A stretch of DNA of 12,002 nucleotides from a bacterium. GTDB taxonomy: Bacteria > Zixibacteria > MSB-5A5 > GN15 > FEB-12. Each line of letters starts with the position of its first letter. Position 1 is the first letter of the stretch. The position numbers were made by a program, and so were the translations under genes. The stretch is from the NCBI GenBank assembly GCA_030619425.1, contig JAUXBJ010000018.1:1-12002 (forward strand). Reading direction: 5' to 3'. The notes beneath the pieces were generated by a model, which saw only the letters and a list, made by a program, of their open reading frames with translations, did no database searches and had not been told where the DNA came from. This document shows, in pieces, positions 3,230-12,002 of the stretch.

Positions 3230-4141
3230 ATGTTCAATGCTTTTCAGAAGCTGAAGGATTCCCTCAGTCGCACCAAGGACAATATCCTCGGAAAGATTTC
3301 CCAGGTCGTTCTTCGGCGGCGCATTGATGACGATCTGCTCGAGGAGATCGAGGAGATCCTGATCGAGGCCGATGTGGGTGTGCCCGCGACTATGAGACTG
3401 ATCGAAAGCGTCAAAAAAAGAGCACGCGAGCGGAAACTGTCTGAGGGGAGCGAAGTCGTGGCGTTGTTGAAAGAAGAGATCGCCGCCATCCTTTCGCAGA
3501 GTCAGGCGAGCGGTTCTACCGACTCTTCCGGGCCGATCGTCTGGTTGATCGTCGGTGTCAACGGTGTCGGCAAGACCACCACGATCGGCAAACTGGCGAC
3601 CTTGTTTGCCGCTGAAGGCAAGAAGACGATGATTGCCGCCTGCGACACGTTTCGGGCGGCGGCGATTGAACAGATAGCTATCTGGGCCGAGCGGAGCAAC
3701 GTCGAAATGGTCCGCTCTCAGAGTGGCTCCGACCCTGCAGCGGTGGCTTTTGATGCCGCCAAAGCAGCTAAGGCCAGAGGCGTCGATATTCTTCTGGTTG
3801 ATACGGCCGGCCGTTTGCACACCAAGGCGAATCTGATGGAAGAGTTGAAAAAGATCCGTCGAGTCGTTAACAAGGCAGTGCCGGATGCACTGGTTTTCAG
3901 CAAGCTGATTATCGATGGTTCCACCGGTCAGAATGCCCTGTCACAGGTCAAGGTGTTCACCGAGGCGGTCGGGTGTGATGGGATCATCGTGACCAAGCTG
4001 GACGGCACGGCCAAGGGTGGCGTCATGATCGCCGTCTCCGAGGAACTGGGCGTCCCGGTGGAATTCATCGGACTGGGGGAGGGGATCGACGACCTGCAAC
4101 GGTTTGACCCTGACAAATTTGCTGAGGCGCTATTCGCATGA
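3230..4141 (+). CDS. ftsY: Signal recognition particle receptor FtsY
   Basis: FtsY is the SRP receptor GTPase. It docks SRP-bound ribosomes making membrane proteins at the inner membrane and pairs with Ffh. The 303 residues hold the helical N domain (1-90) and the G domain: P-loop GVNGVGKTT 109-117, DTFRAAA 139-145, DTAGR 191-195, TKLDG 255-259, and the family ending FIGLGEGIDDLQRFDPDKF. There is no long acidic A domain as in E. coli, which is normal for many phyla; the short amphipathic N terminus probably gives membrane contact. The segment before STGQNA (216-235) looks about three residues longer than the usual family form, and has DGSTGQ where DATTGQ is common. The ATG at 3230 has a GGGG stretch close upstream. 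The stop overlaps the next start as ATGA. A gene order of smc followed by ftsY is common in bacteria. Confidence 0.97.
   Translation: MFNAFQKLKDSLSRTKDNILGKISQVVLRRRIDDDLLEEIEEILIEADVGVPATMRLIESVKKRARERKLSEGSEVVALLKEEIAAILSQSQASGSTDSSGPIVWLIVGVNGVGKTTTIGKLATLFAAEGKKTMIAACDTFRAAAIEQIAIWAERSNVEMVRSQSGSDPAAVAFDAAKAAKARGVDILLVDTAGRLHTKANLMEELKKIRRVVNKAVPDALVFSKLIIDGSTGQNALSQVKVFTEAVGCDGIIVTKLDGTAKGGVMIAVSEELGVPVEFIGLGEGIDDLQRFDPDKFAEALFA
4124..4127 (+). promoter_or_regulatory. Ribosome binding site for yjbQ, inside ftsY
   Basis: GAGG sits ten bases before the yjbQ ATG at 4138, within the last codons of ftsY. Together with the ATGA overlap it supports the chosen start and coupled translation. Confidence 0.5.
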
Positions 4142-4536
4142 AGACACTAACGGTCGAGACGCAAGTGCGGCGACAGATGATCGACGTTACGGCGCGGGTG
4201 CAGGAGATTGTCACCGAGAGCAGTCGCCCCTCAGGTCTCGTTGTCTGTTTCGTCCCGCACACAACCGCTGCCATAACCATCAATGAGAACGCCGACCCGG
4301 ATGTCGCTCGCGACATTCTGTACAAGCTGGGCAAAGAGATTCCGCAGGACGACGGGTACCATCACCTCGAAGGTAACTCGGACGCCCATATCCAGGCGTC
4401 ACTTTTGGGCGCTTCGCAGCAGATACTGTTTGAAAATCGTCGCCTGGTGCTGGGGCGCTGGCAGGCTATTTACTTCTGCGAATTCGACGGGCCTCGACAG
4501 CGTCGCCTGATTGTCGAGGTTATGACACTTGCTTAA
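4138..4536 (+). CDS. yjbQ: YjbQ/UPF0047 family protein
   Basis: This is a 132-residue member of the YjbQ (UPF0047) family, small trimeric proteins with a conserved His/Glu/Asp site. Some database entries call them secondary thiamine-phosphate synthase, on the basis of weak activity in E. coli; the true cellular role is not settled. All family motifs are present: HTTAA 41-45, NENADPDV 49-56, HHLEGNSDAH 75-84 and GRWQAIYFCEFDGPR 106-120. The length is full for the family. The ATG at 4138 shares bases with the ftsY stop (ATGA), and GAGG at 4124-4127 lies ten bases upstream, so translational coupling to ftsY is likely. Its end overlaps rlmH by eight bases. No thiamine gene is nearby, so the context gives no support for the thiamine name; placement among RNA, targeting and chromosome genes hints at a housekeeping role. 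Family assignment is secure, function is not. Confidence 0.93.
   Translation: MKTLTVETQVRRQMIDVTARVQEIVTESSRPSGLVVCFVPHTTAAITINENADPDVARDILYKLGKEIPQDDGYHHLEGNSDAHIQASLLGASQQILFENRRLVLGRWQAIYFCEFDGPRQRRLIVEVMTLA
4516..4519 (+). promoter_or_regulatory. Ribosome binding site deciding the TTG start of rlmH
   Basis: GAGG lies nine bases before TTG 4529 and inside the end of yjbQ. The rlmH frame has a stop at 4523-4525, so only the CAC codon separates that stop from the TTG. The site therefore confirms a rare-type start codon. Confidence 0.6.
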
Positions 4537-4999
4537 GATTCACCTTATCTGCGTGGGGAAAGATAAGGATGCATGGATCACCGACGGGTGTGCTCATTTC
4601 AAAAAGCTGCTTTCGCGGTACGCTGAGGTTTCCTGGCGCGTCCTGTCCGCGGAAAAGTCCGGTTCCGGATTGTCGGCTTCCGAAGTGAAGAAACGGGAGG
4701 CGGCCCGCATTCTGAAGGTACTCGACAAGGGGTTTCATATCGCTTTGGCGGACAAGGGTACCGACCCGGATTCGCACGGACTGGCCCGGCAACTTGAAAA
4801 GTGGCAGATGCGCTGCGGCGGTTGTATTGAGTTTATCATTGGTGGGGCTTATGGTCTGGATGAATCCGTCCTGGATCGCGCGGATCTGGTTCTGTCATTG
4901 TCGTCCCTTACTTTTTCACACCAATTGGTGCGGTTGGTTCTACTGGAGCAACTCTACCGCGCTTTCTCTATTCTCCACAACACCGACTATCACAAATAG
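4529..4999 (+). CDS. rlmH: 23S rRNA (pseudouridine1915-N3)-methyltransferase RlmH
   Basis: RlmH is a small SPOUT methyltransferase that uses SAM to methylate N3 of pseudouridine 1915 in helix 69 of 23S rRNA, acting on assembled 70S ribosomes as a dimer. The 156 residues fit the family length. The knot motifs are clear: EFIIGGAYGL 101-110 (SAM-binding loop), LSLSSLTFSHQLVR 122-135, EQLYRAFSI 140-148 and the family-defining C-terminal YHK 154-156. The middle motif ADKGTDPDSHGLA departs from the commoner LDxxGxxxSSxxFA. The start is TTG at 4529: a TGA at 4523-4525 closes the frame just upstream, the next possible start (GTG) would remove conserved sequence, and GAGG at 4516-4519 is well placed. 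It overlaps yjbQ by eight bases and is the last gene of the cluster; a hairpin follows directly. Confidence 0.96.
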   Translation: MLKIHLICVGKDKDAWITDGCAHFKKLLSRYAEVSWRVLSAEKSGSGLSASEVKKREAARILKVLDKGFHIALADKGTDPDSHGLARQLEKWQMRCGGCIEFIIGGAYGLDESVLDRADLVLSLSSLTFSHQLVRLVLLEQLYRAFSILHNTDYHK

Positions 5000-5055: not shown

Positions 5056-8000
5056 TTATTTCAGCAGAACCATCTTCTTGGTATCGGTGAAGCTGCCGGC
5101 ATCGAGGCGATAGAAGTAGACGCCTGACGCTGCCGTGCCGCCACGGGAATCAAGACCATTCCAGGTAATCGTCTGATGACCGGCCGGGGCGTGCCCGCTG
5201 AAGGAGCGTACCAGTTTACCGGTGACATTGTAGATGTGAAGCGTCCAGTCGGCCGCCTGCGGCGTGGAGAAGCTGATTGAGGTCGCCGGGTTGAACGGAT
5301 TAGGGTAGTTTTGCGACAGTGAGAACTCGGTCGGCAACTCGCCGCCCTTGTTGACACATCGGTAGGGCCTGCCCTGGTAGTCGACGATCTCTTTGCGTTT
5401 CAGAATCGGCGCCGCATCACCACTATAGGAGATATCAAATAAACGGTGCTCGCCGGCTTCGACCAGGTCCGTTCCGAGATTCCAGATGAGAATCCGCAGT
5501 TCGCCGTCAACAACAGCGTACATGAGATCCATATCTTCGGCGGCAGTTGCCAATTGAGGTATGTCGATTGTCGTCGCGTCGTTCACGTCGAAGACGAACA
5601 GGGCGGCACCGATTTCACCGACTGCATCAGTGGACACACTCAGGTGATCGTCGCTGTATTCGGTCGTGACAAGCAACTCCTCCGGGTATGGGCTCAACTT
5701 GGGAATCGGGTCGGCATCGCCAATGATGACCCGGATTAAGAGCACCAGGTCGGCCACGCTGAGGGTCACTCCGTCGGCGTTGACGTCGGTGGCGGCAATC
5801 TGACCGGCTATATTCACCACGAACACGCTCAGTCCTTTGATGAAGTAGTTGGAGAAGACTACCGCATCGGCAATCTCGTAAGGCACGCCGTTGAGGTTGA
5901 TGTCACCGCGGTCGTCAATTGAATCCGCGTGGATAACGCAGATGCCGCCGTTGATGAACTCGACACAGCGGATCGGGTCGATCTTGCCGCCGCCGAAACA
6001 GTCATCACGAGTACCCATGCCGAAGGGACGAGACGACTCCGGGTAGTTGACGTCATCGTTTTCATCCCAGATCATCGAATTCTCGAAGTTAAGAATACGT
6101 ACATCCACGAACAGATCGTAACCGGAGGTGTCGGAGAAAGCATTGTCGGCGCAGGAATACCAGACGAAATTGATCGGCAGGAACTGATCGCCAAGGTTTT
6201 GGTCATTGGCAACCTGGAATTGCATCTTGACCAGGACACCGTTCGGGAATAAAGTCTCGTGCGGAGGGTGATTAGGACCGTTGTTTATGTCGGCGATTCC
6301 GACCAGACGAACCAGACCGGAAGGGCAGGAAGCGCCGCAGTCAGCGGCGCCCATGCGGTACTCGAAGTACTCCCAGCCATCTACAGCAGTACCTTCGATG
6401 CTGGCATAAGTGAACGCCATTACCGAGGCGTCGTAAGCCAGCAGGATGTCGAAGCCGCCCAGCCACTCGCGTGTCTCGATGTTCAGTTCAGCTATCTGGA
6501 GAAGACCAACCGGGGTACAATCGCCGCCGTCGATCGACACCCGTATGCAGACGTCGCAGTCCTCAAGTTCCTGAATATCGACGAAGAAAGACCCGACAGT
6601 GATGCTGCAGCCGTCGTCCACTTCGAAGCAGAACTCGTACAGTCCGAAGGCGTCCGGCAGGAAGCAGACCCGACCGCTGTCATCGGTAATCAACTCAAAC
6701 TCACCCGGGCCGCAGGTTTGTGTCAGGGTCACGCCGTCTTCAAGGTCGGTGGCGTAGATGCCGTCGATGCAGACCAGGGTCGTGTCGTCGTAACAGCGTT
6801 CAAATACCGGCGTTTCTTGCGGCAGGAACAACTGAGGCGCCTGATCTCCCGTGACGTTGATGGTCGTCACACAGGTGTCGGCATCGCAGCGCCCGGTTGC
6901 AATCAGGGTGATGTCATAGGCGCCGGGCTGGTCGATTATCAAGCAAACTTTGCCATCGGCGTATGAACCTTCGGGTTCAACCGTGATTACCGGGTCAGTT
7001 CCGGTCACCGTCACCGGATAGCACAACTCAACCGGATCGGTCAGGCAGAGCAGGGTATCAATGACTCCGGGGCAGGTGATGACAGGGGGCTGGGGCACCT
7101 GAACATCGAGATCAAACTCGCAGGTGTCAACGCCGCACTGGGCTTCGGCTGTCACCATAATGTTATACAGTCCGGTCTCATCGATATAAACACACAGCTC
7201 GCCGGTGGCGGGGTCGTATGAACCGTTCGGCAAAACCGTCACGATCGCATCACCTGGACTGATCGGCATCGTGATGCAAATAGAATCCGCCGTACACAAA
7301 GTGTCGTATACTGTCGTGGGAGGACAGACAATCAAGGGCGACCCGCCTGGCAGAATAGTGACGATAGTCGTGTCGTAGGCTGTTTCACCGCAAGCATCAC
7401 GCACTGACACTACGACAGTGTGAATACCGAAATCGGCCGGAGTGAAGCAAACTTCATCTTCAACAATCTGGCCGTGCGACGATGACACCTCTATTATGTT
7501 GTCATCAACATCACTATAGGTGACGGGGATACACACCTCGTACGGCTCGCACACGGTCAAACTGGTGTCCGGACCGGTAACGATCTCCGGAGGGCTGTTG
7601 AAGTCCGCGATAACCGTAAAGCTGCAAGAGTCGGAGTTGCAGATCGACGTAGCGATCATCGTGATTTCAAGTGACCCGGCCTCGAGCACCGGAACACAAA
7701 CCTGATTCTCGCTCAGGTACGCCGGTTCCGTCACACTTATCATTTCTACGGATGCTGAGACTGTATAGTCGAGACAGATGGTATCGGGACCACAGGTCAG
7801 CAGAGCGGTGTCGGCGGGGCAGGTGATTACCGCCTCGTCCGGGATAGTAACCTCAACATACACCACGCAAGTATCGTCGTTGCACTCGGCAATGCCGATC
7901 ACTGTAATCACGTAGATGCCGGCAGTATCCGCCGGGAAGCAAAGTTCGCCCTCACCGTAGGCGCCGATTGACGAAGTGACGGTGAAGTTGTTGCCAATGA

Positions 8001-11000
8001 TTTCAAGCGGTACACAGACCTCGGTCGGACCGCAGATCGGTTCGGCCGGTAAGGTATCCTGCGGACAGTTGATCTGCACGAATTCACCGATGTCAACCGT
8101 GACACAGGCATCCAGCGTATCGGCCAGGCCGCATACATCGATAGCTATCACCTCGACGCAGTAAAGCCCGGAGCTCTCGGCGGTGAAACATATTTCACCG
8201 GTGGCATCGTCATAGTAGCCGACGTCGGTCAGTACCTCGACCAGGTTATCCTCCGCGTCACCGAATGCTATCGGTACGCAGATATCGGGCTGGCAAGTGG
8301 TGATAACGGAGTCGGCCCAATCATAGATTATAAACGGCGCAGTATTGAATTCAATCGTGACCGCCATAGTGTCGCTGTCCTCTTCGCCGCATTCATCGAC
8401 AGCCGTCACGATCAAACTGTAAACGCCGGCTGTGTCAGAGGTGAAGCAAACGCGGCTGTGCAGCGGATCGTACGAGCCGCCGGTGACTATGACATCAGCG
8501 ATATTACCGTCCGGATCATACACGCCCACCGGCACGCAGACCTCCGACGGATCGCAGGACATGATGCTGCTGTCGGGTGGCAAGAGAACGAGAGGAGCGT
8601 GGTTGCATTCAATCGTAACAGTGAAACTACAACTGAAGCTGCCGCACGGAGTGACAACCTCGAGAGTTACTTGGTTGGTATTACCGCATTCGGATATGAA
8701 ACAGACAGATTGCAGTTCATCATCGAACCAGGTGTTGATTCCGGTCACGTTGACCGTAGCGATTTCAGGGATGCCGCCGATCGGCAGGCAGAAGGTGTCA
8801 CCGACACAAGTGAAGATAGTCGTGTCGTTCGGACAGACAAGCTCGATCCCCTGGTCGGTCAGGATTGTCACATAAGCGGTGTCGGCATCGACCATGTCGC
8901 AACTGTCGGTAACCGTCACGATAATATCGAAGGTGCCACTGTCGTAAGGCGTGAAACAAACCTGCCCGTCGCTGTACGAGCCGCGGTTGACATGGATACT
9001 CTGGATATTGTCATCCGGATCGGAGATGTCTATCGGCAGGCATATCGTCTGCGGATAACACAAGTATACCGTTGTGTCAGGCATTCCTGTCGCGACCGGC
9101 GGACTGTTTATGTCCACGCTTATGTTGATGGTGTCGGCCGCCATCAGGTCGCACGTATCAACCACGGTCACGATCATGGTGTAATTGCCCGGTCCGTCAG
9201 GCGTGAAGCAGACCTGCGAGGTAGCCTCGTTATAGATACCCAGGCTGGTTGTTAGTGACTGGTAAACGCTAATCGTGTTGACATCGACGCAGATTTCGCC
9301 CAGTTCACACAAGTCGAGATCAAGATCGTCACCAAGATCGACAAATGGCGGGGCGCCGGAGGTCACGGTGATTGTCACCGTATCCGCCGCAGTTGCACCG
9401 CACTCGTCGGTGGCTTCGACGATCAATTCGTAGGCGCCGTCATAGTCAACCTCGAAACAGACCTTGCCGGTTTGCGGATCGTAACTGCCGAGATTCGGAG
9501 TTACGGTAAGCAGGTTGCCGTCCTCGTCACCAACGGTAACGTCGACACAAACTTCGGTGAGGCCGCACAAACCGACCTCGAAATCGGCGCCGAGATCAAC
9601 ATACGGCGGTTCGTTCAGGTCAACCGTGACCACCGTTGTGTCAGTTGCCGTGGCGCCGCACGAATCGGCCGCTGTGACGATTATCATATAGCTGCCGACA
9701 GTATCGGCGAAGAAACAGACTCGCTCATTGTCGGCATCGAACTGTCCGTAATTGACCGTGACAGTCAGAACATCCATGTCGGCGTCCGTGACGGCGACAT
9801 CAAAGCAGATTTCCGTCGGTTCGCAAAGGAACGTCGCGAAATCATCGGCGCTAATGACACTCGGCGCGTGGTTGCCCTCGATAGTCACCGGCACGATGCA
9901 TGTGTCGGAATGGTCACAAATGTCCACGACCTCAATGACGATGTCAAACTGGTCGGAGGTGGTCGCCTCGAAACAAACCAGGCCGGCATCGAACCAGGCG
10001 TTGCCGGACAGGATATTCACCGTTAACGGCTGTAACTCCGGATCGCTGGCGTTGAACTCAAAGCAAAGAGTGTCAGGTTCACATATCGAGAACGACTGAG
10101 GTTCCGGACAATCCACGACCGGCGGGCGGTCGAGCAGTACGGTAATCCTGATCGTATCCGGATCGCACGGCGGACACTCGGGGCAGGCATCGCTGTAAAT
10201 CTTGCTGCCGGTACAAGGATCGGTAACACAATATTCAAATATGTATGTGGCTGAGTCGACGTCGTTCGGCATGAAGCAGGTCTCTCCGGAACTGTCGGTC
10301 AACATCGTAAACCCGCCCGGACCGGACTCCTGGGTGATGTTAAGAATATCGCCGTCGGCATCGGTTGCGACAACGTCGAAGCAGACTTCCTGAATGTTGC
10401 ACAGATAAATGGTAGAATCATACGCGTGGAGTATGGGCGGGCTGTTAATAGTTATGGTGTCGTAGACGAAGCCGGTATCGCCGGCGCAAGTGTCGTAGGC
10501 CGCCACCTCAAAGGTGTAGACACCGGATGTATCCGGGAAGTAACTGATATATCCCGTCTGGGTATCAACAGTGCCCACGCCGGACAACATAACAAAGGTC
10601 ATCGGGTCGTCATCAGCGTCATAAGCAGTAACGCCAACCTCGCGGAGTTGGTCGGGCTCGCACAAGGTAGCTGAGGTAAACCGATCATAGACGATTGGCG
10701 GCGTATTGAGTTCGATGGTGACGGTGAATTCGGCGTCGCAATATGCGCCGCAACTATCGAAGCAGCGGACGGTGATGGTACCGCCGATGCTCTTGTCCGG
10801 AGTATAGCACCAATAACCGTCGACGATTTCACCTACACCGGAGAAGACCTCGCAACGGTCGAAGTTGTTGTTCGGATCGGTTGCCGACACCGGCAGACAG
10901 ATTTCTTCAGGTTCGCAAAGGACGATGATTGTATCATTCGGCGGATTGCAGATCGGTGCGTCGTTGAGATCAACGGTCACGATAGTTTCACAAGAACTCT

Positions 11001-12002
11001 CGGCGTCGCAAGCGTCGAAAGCGGTCAGGACGATGACGTTAGGTCCTTCAATCGGCGTGAAGCAGACAGTGCCGTTAGCCATAATGACCTGAACGCCGTT
11101 GACTGTTACAATGATCGACTCCAGAGCACCCTCCGGGTCGGACGCCGCAAAGCCACCGATGCAAACGTCACTCATATCGCAGGACCAGAGAGTGGTGTCA
11201 TTCGGGCAGGTCACCGTCGGTGGCTGATTGATCTCAAAGGTAACGGTGAATGTCTGGTCGCAATATGCGCCGCATGAATCCGTGGCGCGGGTTGTGACCG
11301 TGACTGTCTCGGCGCCTACTGGCGTGTAGCACCAGGTTCCCTCGACAACACTACCGGGGCCGGAGATCAGTTCCCATCCGTAGAGGTTGCCGTCCGGGTC
11401 ATCGGCGACGAGTAGCAGGCAGAGTTCCTGCGGGCCGCAGTTGAACAGGGTGGTGTCGGTCGGCATCAGGCAAACCGGCTCGCTGTTGAGAATAACCTCG
11501 ACGACGGCGTCGCACCAACTGGTATCATCGCAATCATCAACGGCATAGAGAATCATCGAGTTGGCGCCTTCGGTCGGCGCGAAGCAGATACGGCCTTCAA
11601 TGACCGGGTAGTCGGCGCCGTTAACAGTCACCCAGATAGAGTTGAGGTTCCCGTCTTCATCTATCGCGCCAAAACCCTCGACACAGATATCATCATCCAG
11701 GTTGCATACAAAGACCGGTTCGAGGAAGTCGACACAGGCCACCGCCGGCGGCGCGTTCAAGTCGAACGTTACGGTGAATCTGCTCTCGCACGTCGCACCG
11801 CAATCGTCGGTGCACTGAATGGTTACCGTTACTGTTTCATCACCTGCGGGAGTGTAAGTCCAGAGTCCATTGATGAGTTGTCCCGGACCGTTGGTAATCG
11901 AACAACCGGTCAGGTTGCCATCGATATCGCTACCGCTAACCGGCAAACTTACTTCGGCCAAATCACACTGGAAAATCGTAGTGTCGTTTGGCACGTTGCA
12001 GG
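5056..12002 (-). CDS. Giant secreted repeat protein with cohesin-like, dockerin-like and T9SS sorting regions, 5'-partial
   Basis: I recognise the architecture but not a named gene. The frame is open through the right edge: codons before the GTG at 11994 (Cys-Asn) continue the first module, so the true start and signal peptide are outside. At least 2314 residues are visible. Counting the codon at 11992-11994 as residue 1: 21 Ig/cadherin-like modules 1-1814; cohesin-like domain about 1815-1970; linker to 2028; dockerin-like EF-hand pair 2029-2093; a beta-rich region about 2101-2223; FlgD-like/type IX sorting tail 2224-2312 ending KKMVLLK. Composition is rich in Asp, Val, Thr and Cys with very few Lys, as expected for an exported, disulfide-bonded, calcium-binding surface protein. 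No catalytic domain is seen. It is probably an adhesin, surface-layer-like or scaffold protein of an FCB bacterium. It runs convergent to rlmH and ends 27 bases from the shared hairpin. Confidence 0.93.
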   Translation of the reverse strand, partial: CNVPNDTTIFQCDLAEVSLPVSGSDIDGNLTGCSITNGPGQLINGLWTYTPAGDETVTVTIQCTDDCGATCESRFTVTFDLNAPPAVACVDFLEPVFVCNLDDDICVEGFGAIDEDGNLNSIWVTVNGADYPVIEGRICFAPTEGANSMILYAVDDCDDTSWCDAVVEVILNSEPVCLMPTDTTLFNCGPQELCLLLVADDPDGNLYGWELISGPGSVVEGTWCYTPVGAETVTVTTRATDSCGAYCDQTFTVTFEINQPPTVTCPNDTTLWSCDMSDVCIGGFAASDPEGALESIIVTVNGVQVIMANGTVCFTPIEGPNVIVLTAFDACDAESSCETIVTVDLNDAPICNPPNDTIIVLCEPEEICLPVSATDPNNNFDRCEVFSGVGEIVDGYWCYTPDKSIGGTITVRCFDSCGAYCDAEFTVTIELNTPPIVYDRFTSATLCEPDQLREVGVTAYDADDDPMTFVMLSGVGTVDTQTGYISYFPDTSGVYTFEVAAYDTCAGDTGFVYDTITINSPPILHAYDSTIYLCNIQEVCFDVVATDADGDILNITQESGPGGFTMLTDSSGETCFMPNDVDSATYIFEYCVTDPCTGSKIYSDACPECPPCDPDTIRITVLLDRPPVVDCPEPQSFSICEPDTLCFEFNASDPELQPLTVNILSGNAWFDAGLVCFEATTSDQFDIVIEVVDICDHSDTCIVPVTIEGNHAPSVISADDFATFLCEPTEICFDVAVTDADMDVLTVTVNYGQFDADNERVCFFADTVGSYMIIVTAADSCGATATDTTVVTVDLNEPPYVDLGADFEVGLCGLTEVCVDVTVGDEDGNLLTVTPNLGSYDPQTGKVCFEVDYDGAYELIVEATDECGATAADTVTITVTSGAPPFVDLGDDLDLDLCELGEICVDVNTISVYQSLTTSLGIYNEATSQVCFTPDGPGNYTMIVTVVDTCDLMAADTINISVDINSPPVATGMPDTTVYLCYPQTICLPIDISDPDDNIQSIHVNRGSYSDGQVCFTPYDSGTFDIIVTVTDSCDMVDADTAYVTILTDQGIELVCPNDTTIFTCVGDTFCLPIGGIPEIATVNVTGINTWFDDELQSVCFISECGNTNQVTLEVVTPCGSFSCSFTVTIECNHAPLVLLPPDSSIMSCDPSEVCVPVGVYDPDGNIADVIVTGGSYDPLHSRVCFTSDTAGVYSLIVTAVDECGEEDSDTMAVTIEFNTAPFIIYDWADSVITTCQPDICVPIAFGDAEDNLVEVLTDVGYYDDATGEICFTAESSGLYCVEVIAIDVCGLADTLDACVTVDIGEFVQINCPQDTLPAEPICGPTEVCVPLEIIGNNFTVTSSIGAYGEGELCFPADTAGIYVITVIGIAECNDDTCVVYVEVTIPDEAVITCPADTALLTCGPDTICLDYTVSASVEMISVTEPAYLSENQVCVPVLEAGSLEITMIATSICNSDSCSFTVIADFNSPPEIVTGPDTSLTVCEPYEVCIPVTYSDVDDNIIEVSSSHGQIVEDEVCFTPADFGIHTVVVSVRDACGETAYDTTIVTILPGGSPLIVCPPTTVYDTLCTADSICITMPISPGDAIVTVLPNGSYDPATGELCVYIDETGLYNIMVTAEAQCGVDTCEFDLDVQVPQPPVITCPGVIDTLLCLTDPVELCYPVTVTGTDPVITVEPEGSYADGKVCLIIDQPGAYDITLIATGRCDADTCVTTINVTGDQAPQLFLPQETPVFERCYDDTTLVCIDGIYATDLEDGVTLTQTCGPGEFELITDDSGRVCFLPDAFGLYEFCFEVDDGCSITVGSFFVDIQELEDCDVCIRVSIDGGDCTPVGLLQIAELNIETREWLGGFDILLAYDASVMAFTYASIEGTAVDGWEYFEYRMGAADCGASCPSGLVRLVGIADINNGPNHPPHETLFPNGVLVKMQFQVANDQNLGDQFLPINFVWYSCADNAFSDTSGYDLFVDVRILNFENSMIWDENDDVNYPESSRPFGMGTRDDCFGGGKIDPIRCVEFINGGICVIHADSIDDRGDINLNGVPYEIADAVVFSNYFIKGLSVFVVNIAGQIAATDVNADGVTLSVADLVLLIRVIIGDADPIPKLSPYPEELLVTTEYSDDHLSVSTDAVGEIGAALFVFDVNDATTIDIPQLATAAEDMDLMYAVVDGELRILIWNLGTDLVEAGEHRLFDISYSGDAAPILKRKEIVDYQGRPYRCVNKGGELPTEFSLSQNYPNPFNPATSISFSTPQAADWTLHIYNVTGKLVRSFSGHAPAGHQTITWNGLDSRGGTAASGVYFYRLDAGSFTDTKKMVLLK
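5059..5325 (-). other. FlgD-like / type IX secretion C-terminal sorting domain
   Basis: Residues 2224-2312 read FSLSQNYPNPFNPATSISFS, then LHIYNVTGKLVRSF, HQTITWNGLDSRGGTAASGV and YFYRL...TKKMVLLK. These are the hallmarks of the C-terminal Ig-like tail found on exported proteins of the FCB group, which in Bacteroidetes directs passage through the type IX system and surface anchoring. It ends exactly at the stop codon, as expected. Confidence 0.92.
5326..5694 (-). other. Second beta-rich region, possibly a degenerate cohesin-like domain
   Basis: Residues about 2101-2223 (LLVTTEYSDDHLSVSTDAVGE, then FVFDVND, LRILIWNLG and HRLFDISYSG) show short alternating hydrophobic strands ending in LFDISY, like the last strands of a cohesin or similar sandwich. 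The assignment is weak. It is followed by a linker, DYQGRPYRCVNKGGELPTE, leading into the sorting tail. Confidence 0.4.
5716..5910 (-). other. Dockerin-like duplicated EF-hand segment
   Basis: Residues 2029-2093 carry two calcium-loop motifs each followed by a hydrophobic helix: GDINLNGVPYEIADAVVFSN and TDVNADGVTLSVADLVLLIR, with a 15-20 residue linker. This is the dockerin type I plan. In both loops the last aspartate sits at loop position 13 rather than the usual 12, so each is one residue longer than the classical form. Confidence 0.8.
6085..6552 (-). other. Cohesin-like beta-sandwich domain
   Basis: Residues about 1815-1970 begin VCIRVSIDGG and contain GGFDILLAYDASVMAFTYAS, then GLVRLVGIAD, GVLVKMQFQV and a closing LFVDVRIL. 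Alternating hydrophobic strands, the yDxxv(L/M)xF turn and the late kmxFxV strand are the cohesin-fold pattern. Cohesins bind dockerins in cellulosomes, but similar domains are widespread in non-cellulolytic bacteria. Binding partner unknown. Confidence 0.65.
10126..10440 (-). repeat. Module 7: long module with CPECPPC insertion
   Basis: At 105 residues this is the longest module. After the DPC motif it carries an insertion with DACPECPPCDPD (cysteines at residues 604, 607 and 610; bases about 10165-10185) before the last strand RITVLLD. With an additional cysteine in FEYC the module totals eight cysteines. The C-x2-C-x2-C cluster could form extra disulfides or bind a metal; the sequence cannot decide. 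Confidence 0.75.
10441..10701 (-). repeat. Module 6: reduced to one cysteine pair
   Basis: This module keeps only the cysteines at module positions 14 and 72. At the place of the usual second cysteine it reads LREVGV, and at the usual VCFTP it reads YISYFP. Both members of the 21/50 pair are therefore missing together, as they also are in module 1. It marks the boundary between the A/B block and the later modules. Confidence 0.8.
10735..10752. repeat. 18-base exact repeat, copy in module 5
   Basis: GTCGCAATATGCGCCGCA (+ strand reading) is identical to 11257-11274. It encodes, on the - strand, part of the CGAYCD segment. It supports a fairly recent common origin of modules 3 and 5. Confidence 0.85.
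11257..11274. repeat. 18-base exact repeat, copy in module 3
   Basis: Identical to 10735-10752, at the same place in its module. The equivalent site in module 1 (near 11790-11806) has diverged. Confidence 0.85.

Follow-up and report, generated by a model that had tools for sequence, protein, structure and literature searches.

A giant secreted protein of Zixibacteria with predicted disulfide staples between successive cadherin-like modules

Introduction

How are the many cysteines of a long bacterial repeat protein partnered: within each module, or from one module to the next? The question is raised by a 12,002-nucleotide stretch of DNA (the window; assembly GCA_030619425.1, positions 1 to 12,002 of contig JAUXBJ010000018.1), which is the entire contig of 12002 bases in a genome that is 69% complete. 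Its minus strand encodes a giant protein with an array of 21 modules, and the original prediction was that the cysteines, even in number in every module, pair inside the modules, a universal pair at module columns 15 and 70 included. Isopeptide bonds are one means by which long bacterial stalks are stiffened. Such stalks are also described as stiffened by Ca2+ bound in the linkers or by proline-rich linkers (PMC7493085). A regular disulfide between successive modules, if true, would be another solution, and one readable from sequence.

Results

Locus and protein layout

The plus strand of the window carries the end of smc, ftsY, a UPF0047 gene, which we take to be of the YjbQ type, and rlmH. 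Convergent to these genes, a minus-strand frame encodes the giant protein (Table 1), the array of which is interrupted by the contig end; homologue P0001, 88% identical, has 3607 residues and 33 module matches. Twenty regions from related genomes were compared: 16 contain the tail of the protein and in 11 it adjoins rlmH, so the position of the gene is conserved across genera. The ftsY-yjbQ-rlmH group (window 3230-4999) lies convergent to the giant gene in 11 of the 20 regions, with smc also present in 8 of those 11.

A scan of genome contigs gave three close loci, and modules were found in all 61 related genomes. Among the matches listed, named homologues belong mainly to candidate division Zixibacteria, some being labelled GN15 or 'bacterium'; homologue P0160, from a second set described below, carries the name Bacteroidetes. 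The C-terminal sorting domain matches TIGR04183 with 47.2 bits (cut-off 23), which marks the protein as predicted cargo of type IX secretion. In the open-licence literature, no paper was found on Zixibacteria together with type IX secretion. Cohesin-like and dockerin-like regions, judged by eye, share the one chain (window 5725-6558).

Table 1. Features of the giant protein and predicted intermodular staples (window positions; residues numbered from the start of the translated frame; m, module)
Feature	Position	Strand	Basis
Giant secreted protein, 2314 aa in window	5056..12000	-	N-terminus lost at contig end; 3607-aa homologue P0001
Array, 21 cadherin-like modules	6559..12000	-	module 1 = 11749-12000, module 21 = 6559-6837
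C67 (C70 of module 1), predicted partner in module beyond contig end	11800..11802	-	junction covariation, array ends
Predicted staple C12(m1)-C157(m2)	11530..11967	-	C15(i)/C70(i+1) covariation
Predicted staple C99(m2)-C243(m3)	11272..11706	-	C15(i)/C70(i+1) covariation
Predicted staple C188(m3)-C331(m4)	11008..11439	-	C15(i)/C70(i+1) covariation
Predicted staple C274(m4)-C417(m5)	10750..11181	-	C15(i)/C70(i+1) covariation
Predicted staple C362(m5)-C505(m6)	10486..10917	-	C15(i)/C70(i+1) covariation
Predicted staple C447(m6)-C596(m7)	10213..10662	-	C15(i)/C70(i+1) covariation
Predicted staple C534(m7)-C695(m8)	9916..10401	-	C15(i)/C70(i+1) covariation
Predicted staple C640(m8)-C781(m9)	9658..10083	-	C15(i)/C70(i+1) covariation
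Predicted staple C726(m9)-C867(m10)	9400..9825	-	C15(i)/C70(i+1) covariation
Predicted staple C812(m10)-C950(m11)	9151..9567	-	C15(i)/C70(i+1) covariation
Predicted staple C898(m11)-C1034(m12)	8899..9309	-	C15(i)/C70(i+1) covariation
Predicted staple C981(m12)-C1119(m13)	8644..9060	-	C15(i)/C70(i+1) covariation
Predicted staple C1065(m13)-C1204(m14)	8389..8808	-	C15(i)/C70(i+1) covariation
Predicted staple C1149(m14)-C1290(m15)	8131..8556	-	C15(i)/C70(i+1) covariation
Predicted staple C1236(m15)-C1373(m16)	7882..8295	-	C15(i)/C70(i+1) covariation
Predicted staple C1323(m16)-C1454(m17)	7639..8034	-	C15(i)/C70(i+1) covariation
Predicted staple C1403(m17)-C1537(m18)	7390..7794	-	C15(i)/C70(i+1) covariation
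Predicted staple C1484(m18)-C1622(m19)	7135..7551	-	C15(i)/C70(i+1) covariation
Predicted staple C1569(m19)-C1705(m20)	6886..7296	-	C15(i)/C70(i+1) covariation
Predicted staple C1652(m20)-C1798(m21)	6607..7047	-	C15(i)/C70(i+1) covariation
Last C15 (C1736, m21) and likely partner C1815 or C1828 in following domain	6517..6795	-	last-module Cys counts
Domain after array, cohesin-like by eye	6060..6558	-	approximate bounds; without Pfam match
Dockerin-like repeat pair by eye	5725..5913	-	approximate bounds; without Pfam match
Type IX secretion sorting domain (TIGR04183, PF18962)	5068..5307	-	profile match

Two AlphaFold models (mean pLDDT 91.4 and 90.2) contain cadherin-type β-sandwiches in tandem, and cadherin tandems rank first among similar structures; judged from the models, the fold is of the cadherin/Ig type. 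Searches of Pfam, NCBIfam and solved structures gave no module family above cut-off except Big_9 (PF17963), the only Pfam family to pass in the module region (85.6 bits for the whole protein, cut-off 23.6), with two stretches in the whole protein at E 0.1, and four and one in the halves scanned separately at E 1. The cadherin repeat (PF00028, 18.1 bits, cut-off 28.8) and the PKD domain (PF00801, 10.8 bits, cut-off 23.5) remained below threshold. The best solved-structure matches were collagenase-type domains and a protease (E 0.0008-0.001).

Parity and pairs inside modules

A recount on the translated minus strand (12000..5056, residues 1-1814) agrees with the 116 cysteines originally counted in 21 modules, all even in number (modules 1-21: 6, 6, 6, 6, 8, 2, 8, 6, 4, 4, 4, 4, 8, 4, 6, 6, 6, 4, 6, 6, 6). 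The earlier numbering starts at a GTG two codons in, the cysteine before it (C1) having still been counted. When the columns of the 21 modules were shuffled 1000 times, the even fraction reached 0.81 at most. Homologous modules were collected with a profile of the 21 modules from the window and the 120 of 308 homologues listed; removal of 368 partial matches from 3195 left 2827 modules, 1117 of them non-redundant at <55% identity. Even counts occur in 92.1% of the 1117, and in 50.5% (maximum 56.0%) after 1000 column shuffles. With C15 (or C13, see below) paired with C70 of the same module, the named pairs account for all but 212 of the 5282 cysteines in the 1117 modules.

The joint losses and gains on which the original prediction was built were seen again in the window: 21/50 (column 51 here) is absent from modules 1 and 6 together, an early/late pair (4-6/72-80) is present in modules 1-5, 8, 13, 16, 17, 19 and 20, and 36/66 occurs in modules 1 and 5. 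The proposed spacing rule, by which the late cysteine lies four residues after C70 where the early one is at column 4, and five or six after where it is at 5 or 6, holds except in module 16, in which the early cysteine is 11 residues before the anchor cysteine and the late one 5 after C70. Module 21 adds the pair 40/63, module 15 the pair 61/79 and module 13 the pair 56/84. Counted in the window alone, no intramodular pair has an exception; the pairs occur in 1 to 19 modules each.

The broader claim, that this covariation predicts intramodular disulfides, carries over to homologues for seven pair types (Table 2) and breaks down for 15/70, which behaves as intermodular. High values were also obtained for the cross-combinations 4/66, 66/74, 4/36 and 36/74 (phi 0.72-0.81), which we read as 4/74 and 36/66 sharing one module type. 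The pairs 4-74 and 6-76 shift in step, as would two parallel neighbouring strands.

Table 2. Intramodular cysteine pairs in 1117 non-redundant modules of the listed homologues and the window
Columns	Both present	Only one present	phi
61/79	64	1	0.992
21/51	897	7	0.980
6/76	379	16	0.968
40/63	21	3	0.932
4/74	61	13	0.898
36/66	45	13	0.868
56/84	14	12	0.730

Four cysteines of module 7 (window 10126-10443; C591, C606, C609 and C612) match no named pair, three of them lying in a late insertion, and other homologues have a similar cysteine-bearing insertion in their module 2. Adjacent cysteines C56-C57 occur in 82 of the 2827 modules, in some of the homologues listed (P0010, P0013, P0017 and P0019).

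Pairing across junctions

Both C15 and C70 are present in all 21 window modules. In an uninterrupted array, the count is even whether the 15/70 bonds are intra- or intermodular, and the two cannot be told apart from the window by itself. The original prediction named routine loss of just one member of a pair in homologous modules as grounds for refutation. Modules do lose single members: with column 15 alone, one cysteine stands without the other in 32 + 50 of 1117 modules and both are missing from 9 (phi 0.145). In modules with a two-residue insertion, such as window module 20, the same cysteine appears as C13; when this is counted as C15, single members occur in 99 + 49 of 2827 modules and no module lacks both (phi -0.025). 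The intramodular reading of 15/70 thus fails that test.

C15 (or C13) of module i and C70 of module i+1, by contrast, covary at phi 0.954 over 2437 adjacent pairs from the window and the 120 of 308 homologues listed. Both are present at 2403 junctions, C15 alone at none, C70 alone at 3 and neither at 31, C70 thus being kept at 3 of the 34 junctions without C15. At 1101 non-redundant junctions, 1087 have both, 14 neither and none is discordant. Offsets of -3, -2, -1, +2 and +3 modules give phi between -0.013 and -0.022. If column 13 is not counted with column 15, the raw cross-junction value drops to 0.48, and a high value can arise from the order of modules by itself, as for Y55-C84' (0.81; a prime denotes module i+1). 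The 31 joint losses sort by eye into five kinds (21, 5, 3, 1 and 1), and so represent few independent events; the largest kind is perhaps one orthologous junction. Among 2446 neighbouring pairs of modules, 33 have odd counts in both, double the expectation of 16.5; in 31 of the 33, the first module has a C70 without a partner and the second a C15 or C13 without one.

A second homologue set comprised 81 proteins and four contigs of this genome, any cysteine in columns 12-16 being taken as C15. Unfiltered, its 95 junctions divide into 86 with both, 4 with neither, 4 with C70 only and 1 with C15 only; removal of 7 junctions gapped at a site, which include all 5 discordant ones, leaves 86 with both and 2 with neither (88). 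Within the same module, 82 have both and 19 + 14 only one.

Array ends

If neighbours are stapled, C70 is dispensable in the first module of an array, and so is C15 in the last one if nothing beyond it can serve as partner. A full first module was available in 87 proteins (listed homologues and window). Where it starts at most 60 residues from the protein start, C70 is absent and C15 kept in 44 of 47; the three with C70 are the protein studied here, which is cut; P0084, with a record that opens two residues ahead of the module; and P0099, whose first residue is a methionine. Where the first module starts further in, it follows other domains, several of them cysteine-bearing, and C70 is present in 28 of 40. 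At the other end, 107 of 114 last modules carry C15, and in 100 of these proteins the next 15 residues contain two or three cysteines; in the 7 without C15 they contain one. Among 18 flanked arrays of the second set, 11 lack both the front C70 and the back C15, 4 lack only the front one, 1 only the back one and 2 neither. A four-module protein in this genome reads (15,-)(15,70)(15,70)(-,70). Eight arrays have exactly this form; these are orthologues of one protein, not eight events. In the window, the cysteine originally set aside as lone (residue 1813 in that numbering) is C1815, a candidate partner of the last C15. In all, the predicted assignment gives the window 20 staples and 35 bonds inside modules, besides a staple from C67 to a module upstream and a bond from C1736 to the next domain; the four cysteines of module 7 named above are left over.

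Residue couplings and a putative linker Ca2+ site

Mean-field DCA was run on 2437 two-module rows (effective number 1774; 14028 column pairs). The pair 15-70' ranks 7 of 14028, and, linker pairs set aside, no other pair across the junction ranks above 186; the same-module pairs 15-70 and 15'-70' rank 41 and 87, which goes against a perfectly clean picture. Linker column 85 is coupled to loops of the next module (85-28' and 85-68') and column 13' to 85'. The couplings 13'-85', 4-74, 6-76 and 6-78 place C15 near the linker, and 85-28', 85-68' and 13'-85' bring together C15 of module i, the linker and the loops by C70 of module i+1 without use of the cysteine columns.

Linker N85 covaries with D28 (phi 0.76) and D68 (phi 0.70) of the following module, same-module values being -0.015 and 0.061. 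The triad N85/D28'/D68' is complete at 588 of 1101 junctions, about half, and wholly absent at 315. It resembles the Ca2+ motifs of the linker and second repeat in cadherins, which are described as linker Asn/Asp and DXD and XDX of the next repeat, with XEX-BASE and DYE in the first (PMC5120219). The triad and the 6/76 pair of module i+1 tend to exclude each other (phi -0.55; 42 junctions with both, 546 with the triad only, 299 with 6/76 only, 214 with neither), and the triad is indifferent to 6/76 in module i, as if a disulfide at the module top replaced the ion. The evidence for a Ca2+ site is weaker than that for the staple, as module order alone can give high phi.

Candidate oxidants

Among the 61 related genomes, 37 of which reach 90% completeness with no more than 5% contamination, DsbA (PF01323) was found in 4 (3 over cut-off; controls 8/14), Thioredoxin_4 in 4 (3 over cut-off; controls 9/14), VKOR in 2 (controls 3/14) and DsbB in none (controls 6/14). 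The genome of the giant protein (69% complete) and six genomes of the same genus gave no match to PF01323, PF13462, PF02600 or PF07884, and so no DsbA accompanied by DsbB or VKOR. Erv1/Alr (PF04777) was found in none of the 61 and in none of the control genomes, which makes this search uninformative. DsbD_TM is present in 59 of 61, so a reducing relay exists. As judged by these profiles, most of the 61 genomes either use an oxidant other than the known pairs or have one that has diverged beyond the reach of the models.

Discussion

It is highly probable that the protein is a long secreted rod in which a C15(i)-C70(i+1) disulfide staples each junction, further bonds form within modules, and Ca2+ provides a second lock at about half of the junctions. 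The pairings are shown by covariation and by the array ends, the latter revealing which neighbour a cysteine binds. Each module would be a cadherin-like β-sandwich, internal ones with C15 at the end of an early strand, at the lower end, and C70 in the turn between the last two strands, at the upper end; a bond from C15 of module i to C70 of module i+1 would covalently lock the junction. Intramodular disulfides would clamp strands, 21/51 in most modules, 6/76 or 4/74 in about two fifths, and 36/66, 61/79, 40/63 and 56/84 in a few. Where the triad is present, the Asn of the linker together with D28' and D68' would form the cadherin-like Ca2+ site. We infer that the bonds do form and that Ca2+ is bound; from the fold and the export signal, the rod, exported by type IX secretion, may serve as a stiff surface stalk or fibre.

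Covariation by itself cannot distinguish bonds within a chain from bonds between chains, and C15-C70 bonds joining two side-by-side molecules, offset regularly by one module, would give the same junction table and a crosslinked bundle. This arrangement is very unlikely, given that the couplings of column 85 put both sites at one junction of the same chain and that arrays of only three and four modules follow the rule with capped ends. That all pairs, 15/70 included, are intramodular is less likely still: the constancy of both cysteines in the window, the even parity and the same-module DCA rank of 41 speak for it, and against it stand the same-module distribution in 2827 modules, the N-terminal modules that lack C70 only, and the short arrays of the second set. 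This starting reading of 15/70 was rejected on the odd-pair, junction, N-terminal and second-set data together. Least likely is that the cysteines are reduced or bind metal, the pairing then reflecting metal sites; the scarcity of DsbA, DsbB and VKOR would suit it, but cysteines are gained and lost two by two with fixed partners in a protein that bears an export signal.

A wider proposal may be ventured, more tentatively and with the odds somewhat against it: that Zixibacteria make giant cadherin-like cables, stapled by disulfides at nearly all junctions with Ca2+ as an optional second lock, and that the fifty or so or more disulfides of each molecule are oxidised by a thiol oxidase other than DsbA/DsbB or VKOR. 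The staple would also open to experiment the question of how proteins of this kind could be oxidised in a clade that has almost none of the known disulfide oxidases.

In the open-licence literature, as covered by titles and abstract openings, no bacterial protein was found to be described with disulfides that join one cadherin-like or Ig-like module to the next, which does not show that such a staple is unpublished. Even cysteine numbers are described as a sign of disulfides in exported bacterial proteins, counted on whole proteins (PMC7678975); in the giant protein, parity holds module by module and the partners are resolved. In the extender repeats of RTX adhesins, linker Ca2+ gives stiffness, and the word 'disulfide' is absent from the main text of that account (PMC7493085); the giant protein differs in its predicted covalent staple and its type IX export signal. 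The closest known systems also include the bacterial Ig domain Big_9 and the tandems of cadherin extracellular (EC) repeats.
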